This document shows, in pieces, positions 20,447-23,874 of a stretch of DNA of 64,000 bases. Positions within the stretch are counted from its first letter, which is position 1, and every line of letters starts with the position of its first letter. A program made the position numbers and the translations under genes. The DNA is from Rhizobiales bacterium GAS188 (GTDB lineage: Bacteria > Pseudomonadota > Alphaproteobacteria > Rhizobiales > Beijerinckiaceae). Location of the stretch: NCBI GenBank assembly GCA_900104855.1, contig FNSS01000001.1:1922001-1986000 (forward strand). The letters are read 5' to 3'. The notes beneath the pieces are model-generated. The model did no database searches. It saw only the letters and a program-made list of their open reading frames with translations, and was not told the DNA's origin.

Positions 20447-20457
20447 GATCGTGCATT

Positions 20458-20542
20458 GCCGGCTGGAAGCCGGCGGTCCGAAGGTTGCGCCCGGCTGAAC
20501 CGTTGTGCCAACGCCCTTTTGGACCGCTGGCTTCCAGCCGGC
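20458..20542. repeat. REP pair, copy 1
   Basis: Two inverted 22-bp palindromic units, GCCGGCTGGAAGCCGGCGG.. and its complement, spaced by about 41 bp; total 85 bp. It starts 11 bases after the dehydrogenase stop. The units are of the kind mobilised by RAYT transposases, and an intact RAYT gene lies at 23272-23850. Confidence 0.9.
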
Positions 20543-20568
20543 AGCACAACCCGAATTTGTTACGGCCC

Positions 20569-20671
20569 GGCCTCGGGCGAGTACCGGCCGGAGGTGGCGC
20601 GCCGCGAGGTGCCGGCCAAGTTCCATGCGTGGCCGCTCTACGATCCCACGGGGATGCGGATCCGGGGGTGA
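20569..20671 (+). repeat. coding-tail repeat T2 (copy of a dehydrogenase 3' end)
   Basis: A 103-bp segment aligned without gaps to the last 103 bp of the dehydrogenase gene (20344-20446), still open in frame (GEYRPEVARREVPAKFHAW, PLYDPTGMRIRG, stop). It differs at several codons, changing residues such as S to K and A to T. It has no start signal and is not thought to be translated. Confidence 0.85.
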
Positions 20672-20683
20672 CGATCGTGCATT

Positions 20684-20768
20684 GCCGGCTGGAAGCCGGC
20701 GGTCCGAAGGTTGCGCCCGGCTGAACCGTTGTGCCAACGCCCTTTTGGACCGCTGGCTTCCAGCCGGC
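20684..20768. repeat. REP pair, copy 2
   Basis: An 85-bp REP pair almost identical to copy 1, starting 12 bases after the stop of tail T2. It repeats the arrangement tail, stop, 12 bases, REP pair. Confidence 0.9.
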
Positions 20769-20812
20769 AGCACAACCCGAATTTGTTACGGCCTGGCCTT
20801 ACGAATCGGCCT

Positions 20813-20915
20813 GGCCTCGGGCGACTACCGGCTGGAGGTGGCGCGCCGTGAGGTGCCGGCCAAGTTCCATGCGTGGCCGCTCTACGATCCCACGGGGATG
20901 CGTATCCGCGGATGA
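20813..20915 (+). repeat. coding-tail repeat T3
   Basis: A third 103-bp tail copy (GDYRLEVARREVPAKFHAW, then PLYDPTGMRIRG and stop). It begins the 274-bp left member of the direct repeats that bracket the ClpS-AAA gene. Confidence 0.85.
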
Positions 20916-20927
20916 CGATCGTGCATT

Positions 20928-21012
20928 GCCGGCTGGAAGCCGGCGGTCCGAAGGTTGCGCCCGACTGAACCGTTGTGCCAACGCCCTTTTGGACCGCTGG
21001 CTTCCAGCCGGC
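20928..21012. repeat. REP pair, copy 3
   Basis: An 85-bp REP pair, 12 bases after tail T3 and 17 bases before the stop of the RAYT remnant. It is the same order as on the other side of the ClpS-AAA gene. Confidence 0.9.
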
Positions 21013-21029
21013 AACACAACCGGAATTTG

Positions 21030-21086
21030 TTACGCTTCGGTCCCCCTCGGCTCGCGGCGACGCGCCGATGAGCCATTCCTGAGCGC
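21030..21086 (-). pseudogene. RAYT transposase remnant (3' end only)
   Basis: The last about 60 bp of a RAYT gene on the minus strand, including the stop (21030-21032), closely matching 23272-23333 of the intact copy. A 5-bp deletion relative to the intact gene shifts the frame, and the rest of the gene is missing; similarity stops about 21086, where the leader of the ClpS-AAA gene begins. Confidence 0.75.
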
Positions 21087-21196
21087 GTGCCCCAACGGCC
21101 CGATCGTCTTTGCGGCAGGCGAATGATAACATGGAAATGTCGGCAACCGGCTCTGATGCTGAATTGCGACGGCCGGCCGATCTCAAGGGGGGACCG

Positions 21197-22966
21197 ATGC
21201 TCAACGTTCCGAGAGAGACCGATAGCGTCCGGATCGTTGTCTTCAACGATGACGAAACGCCCTGGGATTTTGTGGAGGACCTTCTGCGCTCCGTTTTCGA
21301 GCTGTCTGGCGCCGAAGCCGCGGCGTTCGTCACGAAAGTCGACGGGAAAGGCAGGGCGGCGTGCGGCTCCTATCCGGCAGACAGGGCCAAGGAGCTGCTC
21401 CGGGTCGCTCGGAAGCGGATCAAGGAACACGGCTACCGGCTCAAATTGGCGGCAGAGAAGGTCGACGGCAACGCGATCGAAGATCGATGTGCTCTTTGCG
21501 GCGAGCCGGGTCAGTCGGAGCAACCGCTCTTCCGGGGCAAGAATGCGTCGATCTGCGACAGCTGTATCCTGCTCGGCGCCGACAATCTGTCCGAGGTGTC
21601 GAGAACCCGCCGGTTCAAATACGCCTATGAGGCTCTCGCCTGGCACTTCACAGGGATCCCGCAGGATCAACTCGTCACGACCACCTGCCAATTCCCGGGG
21701 CACATGCGGCCAGACGTTCAGGCCGCGGTCGACAGGCTCTTCTCCCCATCGCCTATTCGCTTTTTCGGGATCTTCGAGCAGCACCGCTATGAGACCTTGA
21801 CCTTGGCGGCCCTCACCAGAGATGGGCAACATGCCCATACGATTGCGCCCGCTCAATATCAGGACATCGACATCGGCGAGGCGCAGCCGGCGAAATGCCT
21901 CAATAATGGCTTGTGGCTGTGTCGAGCCGGTGGCTTGCGCTACGCGGTCGTGCTGTCGTTTCACCGCGAATATGGGCAGGAGGCGGGGACCTGTGTCGAG
22001 ATCGGGGTGCCTGCAGGTGAAGCGGGAAGCTCATTTGTGCAGCGCTGCTTTGTCGAGCTCGAAGAGGCAGTGAATGCGTCACGATCCTATCGCGGCAAGG
22101 TGCTGTCACTGGAAGGTGGCGGGGACTATCGTGGGCGGTCGAAAGGCGTCACCGTGCACCGCCTGCCGCCGGTGGGGCGCGACGAGGTGATCCTGCCCGA
22201 AGAGACTCTCAAGCTGCTCGACCGCAACGTGCTGAAATTCGTCAAGAGCCGCGACGGATTGCGGGCGCTCGGCCAGTCCACCCGAAAGGGCATCCTGCTC
22301 TATGGTCGGCCCGGAACGGGCAAAACCCATACGATCCGCTATCTGGCAAGCAATCTCGCCGGCCATACGACGCTGCTCATTACAGCCGGGCAAGTTGCAT
22401 TGCTCGGACCTTATTTGAATCTCGCGCGGCTTCTGCAGCCAGCTCTGGTCGTCATCGAGGATGTCGATCTGATCGCGCGGGATCGGGAGACCATGGCGGG
22501 ACCTTGCGAAGAATCACTGTTGAACCAGCTGCTCAACGAGATGGATGGGTTGAAGGACGACGCCGACATCCTGTTCATTCTCACGACAAACCGCCCCGAC
22601 CAACTGGAAGGCGCGCTTGCGGGTCGACCGGGGCGGATCGACCAGGCGATCGAGATGCCGCTGCCTGACGAGGCGGGTCGAGAAAAACTGGTGCGGCTCT
22701 ATGGCAAAGGACTGAAGCTCAGCAAGGCGGTGATAGCCGAAGCCGTCAAGCGATCGGATGGCGTGAGCGCAGCCTTCATCAAGGAAATGATGCGACGGAC
22801 CGCTCAGGCGAGCATTGAGCGCGGGGCCGGCCAATCGGTGACGAGCGCCGATCTCCGTGAAGCCCTTGATGACATGCTCTTCACGGGCGGGCGGCTAAAC
22901 GTCAAACTGCTCGGCGGCGCACAGGGCCGGCTGGAAGCCGGCGGTCCGAAGGTTGCGCCCGGCTGA
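21197..22966 (+). CDS. ClpS-like / ClpX-type zinc finger / AAA ATPase fusion protein
   Basis: A 589-residue protein with an unusual domain order. Residues 10-87 resemble the Clp adaptor ClpS (VVFNDDETPWDFVEDLL; GRAACGSYPADRAKELL). Residues 98-123 form a zinc finger with C98-x2-C101-x18-C120-x2-C123, the spacing of the ClpX N-domain. A middle domain of unknown fold follows, then a classical AAA module: Walker A GRPGTGKT (about 370-377), Walker B LVVIEDVD (about 417-424), sensor TTNRP and an arginine-finger segment RPGRID. In ClpS terms the NDD acid pair is kept, but the conserved His that helps bind N-terminal amines is Asp49 and the gate Met is Trp23. No protease domain is present. The start chosen has a strong AAGGGGGGA; ATGs at 21131 and 21137 are possible. 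The last 13 residues and stop come from a REP element. Confidence 0.8.
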   Translation: MLNVPRETDSVRIVVFNDDETPWDFVEDLLRSVFELSGAEAAAFVTKVDGKGRAACGSYPADRAKELLRVARKRIKEHGYRLKLAAEKVDGNAIEDRCALCGEPGQSEQPLFRGKNASICDSCILLGADNLSEVSRTRRFKYAYEALAWHFTGIPQDQLVTTTCQFPGHMRPDVQAAVDRLFSPSPIRFFGIFEQHRYETLTLAALTRDGQHAHTIAPAQYQDIDIGEAQPAKCLNNGLWLCRAGGLRYAVVLSFHREYGQEAGTCVEIGVPAGEAGSSFVQRCFVELEEAVNASRSYRGKVLSLEGGGDYRGRSKGVTVHRLPPVGRDEVILPEETLKLLDRNVLKFVKSRDGLRALGQSTRKGILLYGRPGTGKTHTIRYLASNLAGHTTLLITAGQVALLGPYLNLARLLQPALVVIEDVDLIARDRETMAGPCEESLLNQLLNEMDGLKDDADILFILTTNRPDQLEGALAGRPGRIDQAIEMPLPDEAGREKLVRLYGKGLKLSKAVIAEAVKRSDGVSAAFIKEMMRRTAQASIERGAGQSVTSADLREALDDMLFTGGRLNVKLLGGAQGRLEAGGPKVAPG

Positions 22967-23010
22967 ACCGTTGTGCCAACGCCCTTTTGGACCGCTGGCT
23001 TCCAGCCGGC
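22926..23010. repeat. REP pair, copy 4 (overlaps the ClpS-AAA stop)
   Basis: An 85-bp REP pair. Its first half is translated as GRLEAGGPKVAPG and supplies the stop codon of the ClpS-AAA gene, so insertion of the REP has replaced the original C-terminus or formed a new one. Confidence 0.9.
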
Positions 23011-23054
23011 AGCACAACCCGAATTTGTTACGGCTCGGCCTTACGAATCGGTCT

Positions 23055-23157
23055 GGCCTCGGGCGAGTACCGGCTGGAGGTGGCGCGCCGTGAGGTGCCG
23101 GCGAGGTTCCATGCGCGGCCGCTTTATGATCCCACGGGGATGCGTATCCGCGGATGA
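23055..23157 (+). repeat. coding-tail repeat T4
   Basis: A 103-bp tail copy (GEYRLEVARREVPARFHAR, then PLYDPTGMRIRG, stop), 44 bases after REP pair 4. It begins the 279-bp right member of the direct repeats that flank the ClpS-AAA gene. Confidence 0.85.
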
Positions 23158-23169
23158 CGATCGTGCATT

Positions 23170-23254
23170 GCCGGCTGGAAGCCGGCGGTCCAAAGGTTGT
23201 GCCCGGCTGAACCGTTGTGCCAACGCCCCTTAGGACCGCTGGCTTCCAGCCGGC
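23170..23254. repeat. REP pair, copy 5
   Basis: An 85-bp REP pair, 12 bases after tail T4 and 17 bases before the stop of the intact RAYT gene. Confidence 0.9.
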
Positions 23255-23271
23255 AGCACAACCGGAATTTG

Positions 23272-23850
23272 TTACGCCTCGGTCCCCCTCGGATCGCGGT
23301 GACGCGCCGATGTGAAGAGCCATTCCTGAGCGCACGACACAAGTCCCGCTTTCACCGGATTGTCCTCGATATAGAAGATCGCGGCCTGCGTCTGTTCTTC
23401 GTTGCGCATGTAGCGATCGTAATATTCACGCGCCCAGAATAGCCCCGACGTTTCCTGCAAGCGATTGATGGCGAGCGCCGTGAAAGATTTCCACGAATGG
23501 ACGATGTCCGGCAGATGGAAGCCTTCAATCTGCTCGGTGAGGACGTGGACGTGATTGGGTATCACGCACCATGCGAGCAGCCGATAGCGGCTTCCGTCGA
23601 AATGAAGCAGCGCATCCTCGACGATCTTGGCCGCAGCGGGATTGGCCAGCGGTCTCGATCCCATGCCTCGGTCGAGCTCCTGGCCGATCGCCTTTTGCCG
23701 TTCGTGAAAGTCTGTGAGCGCATCGAGTTGGGCAAATCCCGGCAAGCTGTCCGCCGTTCGAAACACGATGTGCTGAATGGTCTCAGGCGAGTCGTAATGC
23801 GGCAAATATCCACGCGAATACCAGCCGCGCGGCCCCGTCGGATCTCGCAT
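23272..23850 (-). CDS. REP-associated tyrosine transposase (RAYT, Y1/HUH type)
   Basis: A 192-residue single-strand nuclease-transposase related to the IS200/IS605 Y1 enzymes. The HUH metal motif is IPNHVHVLTEQ, the catalytic tyrosine is in the segment WAREYYDRYMRNEEQ, and the fold starts HIVFRTADSLPGF. These proteins act on REP palindromes, and REP pairs flank this gene on both sides. ATG at 23850 is chosen because GGAGG lies nine bases upstream. The gene is intact, unlike the remnant at 21030-21086. Confidence 0.9.
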   Translation of the reverse strand: MRDPTGPRGWYSRGYLPHYDSPETIQHIVFRTADSLPGFAQLDALTDFHERQKAIGQELDRGMGSRPLANPAAAKIVEDALLHFDGSRYRLLAWCVIPNHVHVLTEQIEGFHLPDIVHSWKSFTALAINRLQETSGLFWAREYYDRYMRNEEQTQAAIFYIEDNPVKAGLVSCAQEWLFTSARHRDPRGTEA

Positions 23851-23874
23851 TGTCACGCCTCCCCCCTTCACGAT

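Follow-up and report, generated by a model that had tools for sequence, protein, structure and literature searches.

A protein from an accessory family, with a ClpS-like domain, a ClpX-type zinc finger and a classical AAA motor in one chain

In the bacteria studied, ClpS is a separate adaptor that acts via ClpA (or ClpC), in a pathway that ends in degradation. In canonical ClpS, His66 makes contact with the alpha-amino group; Lys84, with its neighbour Thr83, is held to face ClpA. Among AAA proteins, YjoB of Bacillus subtilis (PDB 7w42), for which a chaperone role has been reported, has an N-domain and a single classical AAA module, and Bcs1 is the mitochondrial Rieske-protein translocase. Here we describe a gene in a 64,000-nucleotide stretch of contig FNSS01000001.1 from Rhizobiales bacterium GAS188 (the whole stretch is hereafter called the window) that encodes a 589-residue protein at positions 21197–22966 of the forward strand. 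A ClpS-like domain, a zinc finger with ClpX spacing, a middle domain and a classical AAA ATPase follow one another in this protein. This protein is real and conserved, and combines known parts in a new order with a motor whose middle domain is uncharacterised. An earlier note on this DNA, made from the letters alone, had recognised no described family with this order, and no published description of it was found among the papers listed by searches of the open-licence PMC literature, judged by titles and abstract openings. Another ClpS fusion, in which L12/ClpS domains are inserted in vWA proteins of Bacteroidetes, is described in an excerpt of PMC7159879.

Pfam recovered three of the four parts in the order that the earlier note had proposed. 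PF02617 (ClpS) matched residues 7–83 (E 2.9e-15, 56.3 bits against a curated cut-off of 23), which bears out the claim that residues 10–87 are ClpS-like. The zinc-finger family zf-C4_ClpX (PF06689) matched residues 97–129 (E 8.2e-6, 26.1 bits, 0.9 bit below its cut-off of 27), and AAA (PF00004) matched residues 366–489 (E 3.9e-20). No protease domain was found by the Pfam scan of the window protein. The reading frame is open as far as a TTG at 21110 (618 amino acids), but we favour the ATG at 21197 because a purine-rich site, AAGGGGGGACCG, stands immediately 5' of it. An AlphaFold2 model of the full protein has a mean predicted local distance difference test score (pLDDT) of 83.6, with values of 85–95 at residues 11–90 and 54–66 at residues 91–140, the finger stretch. 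The genome holds only one full-length copy, that in the window.

The head is recognisably ClpS in fold and length. In a PDB search, the seven best solved ClpS chains had E values between 1.7e-7 and 3.9e-7; the four printed alignments ran without gaps, and the NDD-T-P and C-G hallmarks are kept. These alignments place N17, D18 and D19 of the window copy at canonical N34, D35 and D36, W23 at the gate Met40 and D49 at His66, and so bear out what had been proposed from the letters: the NDD acids retained, Asp in place of His and Trp in place of the gate Met. For a wider comparison we used 44 ClpS-bearing rows, 17 from a first set (the window copy among them) and 27 loci from the genus search described below; the latter are the best-scoring ones and are biased to intact copies, and rows without ClpS, together with L005 and L008, were left out. 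His66 is found in none of the 44 aligned rows (E25 S8 D4 T2 L2 G2 A1), nor is Lys84, which is always replaced by a hydrophobic residue (L31 M12 F1), and Thr83 is present in a single row. Asp35 and Leu99, by contrast, are kept in all 44, Thr38 in 43 and Asn34 in 36. The gate is diverse (D14 W12 V6 E5 R4 L2 G1). With the rows collapsed from 44 to 29, it ranks seventh in variability among 75 positions and lies between Pro39 and Phe42, which hardly vary; position 66 comes 21st.

The family thus departs from ClpS in lacking His66 and Lys84 and in being fused to a motor. The two ordinary ClpS proteins of the host genome, ClpS1 and ClpS2, retain H66, T83 and K84. In addition, only about nine residues separate the ATG from the ClpS core in the window copy, so that the N-terminal extension of ClpS is missing; an excerpt of PMC9663308 describes this extension as docking in the ClpA channel. 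Since both the ClpA-facing residues and the extension are lost, the head is unlikely to act as a ClpA adaptor, judging from the alignments. The pocket is altered in all 44 rows, in a manner compatible with either the retention or the loss of N-terminus reading.

The finger of the window copy has the form Cys98-x2-Cys101-x18-Cys120-x2-Cys123. The PF06689 scores of relatives are lower than that of the window copy (22.4 bits in L003 and 14.1 bits in L004), and L006 and L023 have the four cysteines without a PF06689 match at E 0.1. A PDB search with the 50-residue finger stretch found ClpX chains only weakly (E 0.042–0.8), below thymidine kinases (best 0.006). The exact x2-x18-x2 spacing is present in 28 of the 44 rows, the window included, and this conservation, a better argument than the weak PDB match, indicates that the finger is real. 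The search for the same domain order in other genomes, which the earlier note had proposed, thus found it, with the finger spacing in 27 further ClpS-bearing rows. The finger is nevertheless dispensable for the architecture, since the remaining 16 of 44 rows lack it. In a tree of 42 rows, six bear the finger (the window copy, L003, L004, L006, L023 and L046), and the simplest reading is that the clade of ten Mesorhizobium genes and L007 lost it. The finger thus resembles the ClpX zinc-binding domain in its four-cysteine spacing and near-threshold profile match, and differs in its place between ClpS and a motor that is not that of ClpX.

The motor is of the p97/FtsH/Bcs1/YjoB type with a middle domain of its own, and is not ClpX-like. 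The ATPase motifs are complete, with GRPGTGKT at 370 as Walker A, LVVIEDVD at 417 as Walker B and, at 462, a second region of homology (SRH) that has its arginines. Walker B has the order ED, not DE, and the ED order is common to Bcs1. The Arg that replaces the usual second Pro of Walker A is found in the window copy only, among 18 aligned rows. By sequence, the AAA part is closest to p97, Afg2, FtsH and PAN, and among NCBIfam models it matches PAN, FtsH and CDC48, the ClpX model covering residues 95–136 only. Over the matched range it is shorter than p97 (165 versus 172 residues), with gaps ahead of Walker B, in the pore-loop/helix stretch. The middle domain, of about 200 residues, was predicted alone with a mean pLDDT of 87.2. 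It belongs to no Pfam family (the best stray match was 0.015, in 6 of 29), and a PDB sequence search gave no match. As a whole, the core (residues 142–562) superposes on YjoB (7w42_B) with a Z score of 19.4 over 353 residues (root mean squared deviation 5.4), and Foldseek placed YjoB first and Bcs1 at ranks 5–7. On these models, it is a likelihood that the motor would work like YjoB or Bcs1. YjoB has neither ClpS nor finger, and the window protein starts with ClpS and not with the N-terminal membrane helix of Bcs1, although some relatives do have a hydrophobic N-terminus.

Rather than a single odd protein, as the earlier note had presented it, this is an accessory family, found mainly in Mesorhizobium and in about half of the sampled genomes of that genus. 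In the genus of G194, 94 of 195 genomes had a family match, some of them twice and some partial; we take this genus to be Mesorhizobium because named Mesorhizobium loci sit among its members in the tree. (Genome counts here include the query or centre genome, and mostly only the best few candidates were scored per genome; all candidates were scored in the search of 60 relatives of the window genome described below.) Across 45 pairs of ten Mesorhizobium genes, the ratio of non-synonymous to synonymous substitution rates (dN/dS) was 0.18 for ClpS, 0.49 for the linker, 0.083 for the middle domain and 0.075 for AAA. Because the domain values are well below 1, these ratios indicate a functional protein under purifying selection, head included. 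A chance open reading frame or frame artefact is ruled out by the Pfam E-values, the conservation over 44 rows and the low dN/dS. The family offers a natural experiment on the re-wiring of a degron reader: a ClpS fused to a different motor and kept under selection, with the ClpA-facing Lys and the pocket His replaced.

In the order, 11 of 297 genomes matched at E 1e-40. A profile search at 1e-90 matched 2 of 385 genomes of the class and 7 of 398 of the phylum; in the phylum to which a Pirellulales relative belongs, it matched 6 of 246. A search of 60 relatives of the window genome, this genome counted among them, gave a match at 1e-60 in the window genome alone. With no match in the others, three congeners included, acquisition of the window gene is the most likely account. 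Third-position GC content is 0.73 in this gene and 0.86 in the adjoining dehydrogenase, flavoprotein and fumarase genes. The window genome measures 9.09 Mb, about twice the size of three sampled drafts of the same genus (4.7–4.9 Mb, 92–98% complete). In the 42-row tree, the ClpS-bearing rows form one group (support 95/85) that includes L005 and L008, in which the head is broken or missing, and this single group suggests one old ClpS–motor fusion that was then kept. Five of the six rows from the planctomycete phylum adjoin the ClpS rows with weak support (85/63), and L053 lies on another long branch. A hydrophobic N-terminal stretch was seen by eye in five of the six (L024, L049, L050, L052 and L053; L051 is without), and this agrees with a common motor whose head can be exchanged. 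A headless branch holds 13 plasmid rows and L009 (100/100). The ClpS–finger module was also sought on its own: residues 1–140 matched 19 plasmid records, none over more than 80% of the query, and 15 of the 19, as listed, cover 55%, that is, the ClpS part alone.

We read the protein as a ring-forming, protease-independent remodelling AAA motor akin to Bcs1 and YjoB, in which the ClpS fold, with or without the finger, would serve as a built-in docking head. About half of our confidence goes to this reading, which we consider the best explanation because the protease part is absent and the ClpS part has changed as it has. What is shown of the head is its presence, purifying selection on it and the rebuilding of its pocket; it would bind a client, either a particular protein or a protein end, and pass this to the motor of its own chain, and it would no longer serve ClpA, given the lost ClpA-facing residues and N-terminal extension. 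The complete ATPase motifs suggest that the AAA modules form a ring in which the client may be remodelled or held by ATP hydrolysis. Release of the client, and not its degradation, is what one would expect of a protein with no protease domain and no protease gene beside the window copy. Protease independence is likely from the sequence, and a protease-independent machine is the natural reading because none of six neighbouring proteins scanned with Pfam is a protease and the window copy lacks the ClpP-loop tripeptide [LIVMP]-G-[FL]. The earlier note's description of a recognition-type module and an AAA motor joined without a protease agrees with the Pfam scan and the six neighbours. Of its suggestion of a protease-independent unfoldase or a defence factor, the first part remains the natural reading; no sign of defence accompanies the second, the PADLOC matches lying in the AAA part.

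Several observations weigh against a remodelling motor with a docking head. The YjoB match rests mainly on the AAA part, which p97 and proteasome ATPases fit equally well (Z about 19). In a fold search with the middle domain alone, no match reached Z 8, YjoB was not among the matches listed, and Bcs1, at Z 5.8, was level with unrelated folds. Of 17 printed rows, 12 carry an MGL, VGL or IGL tripeptide at a single alignment position N-terminal to Walker B; the ClpP loop of ClpX is located elsewhere, yet some link to ClpP is conceivable. No conserved partner gene was recognised. Some copies are also decaying: L028 (in G112) has one stop within ClpS, with an intact finger behind it and an open motor; L031 (in G035) is without ClpS, its motor part open; and several more shortened or interrupted copies were found in the 195-genome genus search.

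The main competitor uses the same pocket differently. In it, the protein is a self-contained N-recognin, whose ClpS head grips free N-termini with a changed code while the AAA part unfolds them. We consider this possible, if on the unlikely side. The retention of Asp35, Leu99, Thr38 and, in 36 of 44 rows, Asn34 speaks for it, as does an acidic or hydrogen-bond-capable residue at position 66 (Glu, Ser, Asp or Thr) in 39 of 44 rows; the variable gate between near-invariant neighbours would suit a changed code, and an excerpt of PMC7966870 on plant ClpS1 has the gate residue tuning N-degron choice. However, His66 is gone from every row, with Leu, Gly or Ala in its place in five, Asn34 is replaced in eight, six positions vary more than the gate, and position 66 is only 21st in rank. 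A bolder form of this idea, which we regard as doubtful, makes the family a mobile, ClpP-independent reader and motor in one, in which a diversified ClpS pocket would read non-canonical N-termini and the protein's own AAA ring would unfold or disassemble the marked protein. If true, this would be a ClpS pathway freed from both ClpA and ClpP. Borrowed Clp parts could instead dock the protein on ClpA and ClpX, feeding or blocking them, and both parts do mediate docking in ClpS and ClpX. To such a co-factor role we give hardly any credence: position 84 is hydrophobic throughout and 43 of 44 rows have lost Thr83, whereas both host ClpS proteins keep the canonical residues, the N-terminal extension is missing from the window copy, and the finger is absent from 16 rows.

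Other alternatives rest on the motor or on the company it keeps. The best PADLOC match, IetA of IetAS (E 2.1e-20), an NCBIfam anti-phage ATPase model (E 1.5e-19) and a patchy gene with a variable head suggest an IetA-like ATPase that would act against phages or in plasmid conflict. The match is confined to the AAA part (residues 326–545), however, and reaches 70.4 bits against an NCBIfam cut-off of 510; inspection by eye of the window and of the neighbourhood entries listed, without a PADLOC scan of the neighbours, showed no subtilase next to the gene, nor did the six Pfam-scanned neighbours include one, so that no partner protease is recognised beside the window gene. We hold this role to be very improbable. 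Improbable too, if less remote, is a role in nitrogen fixation and symbiosis, as a factor for maturation or quality control. Relatives of the core occur on 47 plasmid records (40 of them listed), 46 of which come from Rhizobium, Sinorhizobium or Mesorhizobium, and nif or fix genes lie within 6–10 kb in 7 of 14 plasmid regions opened, once with the gene between nifHDK and nifEN. Headless L037, L054 and L057 have a -24/-12 promoter with a TGT-N10-ACA activator site upstream, one ClpS-bearing copy (L030) has fdxB, nifX and nifN at a distance of about 4.4 kb, and a nif-linked unfoldase, ClpX2 of Azotobacter, is named in the title of a reference. Against this, the plasmid proteins form a separate branch without ClpS, the other seven plasmid regions, whose gene tables are incomplete, show no nif or fix gene, and the activator site is absent from 29 of 33 upstream regions. 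Moreover, nifH over the cut-off, present in 10 of 23 genomes searched, was not found in the window genome, in G112, G194, G216 or G247, or in the genome of L022, all of which are carriers, intact or decayed. For the window copy itself, a link to nitrogen fixation is unsupported, its genome having no nifH over the cut-off.

The upstream regions also differ within the family. L037, L054 and L057 are closely related headless cousins (promoter p 0.005, 0.000 and 0.000, from 200 shuffles each), and among the 33 upstream regions the activator site occurs only in these three and in L030. Among ClpS-bearing copies, only L014 (p 0.005) and L015 (p 0.000) have a good sigma-54 match at about -50; both are without the activator site, and the sigma-54 site is degraded in the rest. 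L035 and L060 have good promoter matches and no activator site. Among the records listed, most plasmid relatives carry the annotation 'AAA family ATPase' or 'ATP-binding protein'; the present analysis provides a domain map for an accessory family whose headless cousins partly adjoin nif and fix genes. Headless relatives lie amid or beside nitrogenase or fix genes at L038:981-10832, L055:1556-11350 and L037:6064-13335, the gene in L038 being annotated as two overlapping frames.

Phage databases gave partial matches. A phage origin was rejected: 51 phage records match, none over more than 80% of the query and all below 60% identity, and the matches listed (20 of the 51) cover the AAA part plus some preceding residues, from residue 261. 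No relative was found in viral_contigs, and the PHROG matches were to separate ATPase, ClpS and finger families.

Table 1. Features of the gene and its surroundings, in window positions
Feature	Position	Strand	Basis
Gene, ClpS – zinc finger – middle domain – AAA	21197..22966	+	Open reading frame, Pfam domains
ClpS-like domain, residues 7–83	21215..21445	+	PF02617, alignment to solved ClpS, pLDDT 85–95 from residue 11
C-x2-C-x18-C-x2-C zinc finger, ClpX type, residues 98–123	21488..21565	+	PF06689, spacing in relatives
Middle domain, residues 139–335	21611..22201	+	No Pfam or PDB sequence match; weak fold matches
Classical AAA module, residues 340–575	22214..22921	+	Pfam; Walker A 370, Walker B 417–424, SRH 462–480
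13 C-terminal residues from the start of a REP element	22925..22963	+	Repeat copy starts at 22925/22926
Left 300-nucleotide direct repeat (REP pair and 3'-end copy of dimethylglycine-dehydrogenase-like gene)	20684..20983	+	96% identical to right copy
Right 300-nucleotide direct repeat	22926..23225	+	Flanks gene
REP-associated tyrosine transposase	23272..23871	-	NF047646, Pfam Y1_Tnp

The gene sits within an array of repetitive extragenic palindromic (REP) elements at 20457–23282 (Table 1). Here a 113-nucleotide REP pair, present five times, alternates with copies of the final 106 nucleotides of the upstream dehydrogenase gene. A REP copy supplies the stop codon of the AAA gene, and the REP-encoded C-terminal tail is not common to the aligned relatives. 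Allowing one mismatch, we counted 107 occurrences of the REP motif in the genome and none of its reversed control. The adjoining REP-associated tyrosine transposase matched NF047646 (E 4.6e-22, 78.5 bits, cut-off 80) and Y1_Tnp (29.1 bits, cut-off 23). By Pfam, the neighbours are a choline-kinase-like gene and an FAD/GCV_T dehydrogenase gene upstream, and a flavoprotein gene (fumarate reductase/succinate dehydrogenase type) and a fumarase gene downstream.

A similar arrangement is seen in Mesorhizobium sp. CU3 (L022:9600-11830), in which the gene lies behind an FAD-dehydrogenase gene whose 3' end (about 140 nucleotides) is duplicated after it. Because this repeats the duplicated 3' end of the window, it hints at a common mode of insertion. 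Among the ten Mesorhizobium loci, some pairs (for example L013/L016) share only the gene and about 70 bp in front of it, and others (for example L014/L015) share kilobases of flank. Neighbour clusters from an all-against-all BLAST were set aside, being mostly antisense frames and shared vertical flanks. On Sinorhizobium plasmids, headless relatives lie near pitrilysin-family peptidase genes (two each in L060 and L061, one in L036), and groESL is found near L036 and L060. Finally, a cluster of TIR-domain and caspase-family genes lies a few kilobases upstream of the headless relative in two loci (L054:4825-7194 and L057:4857-7226).

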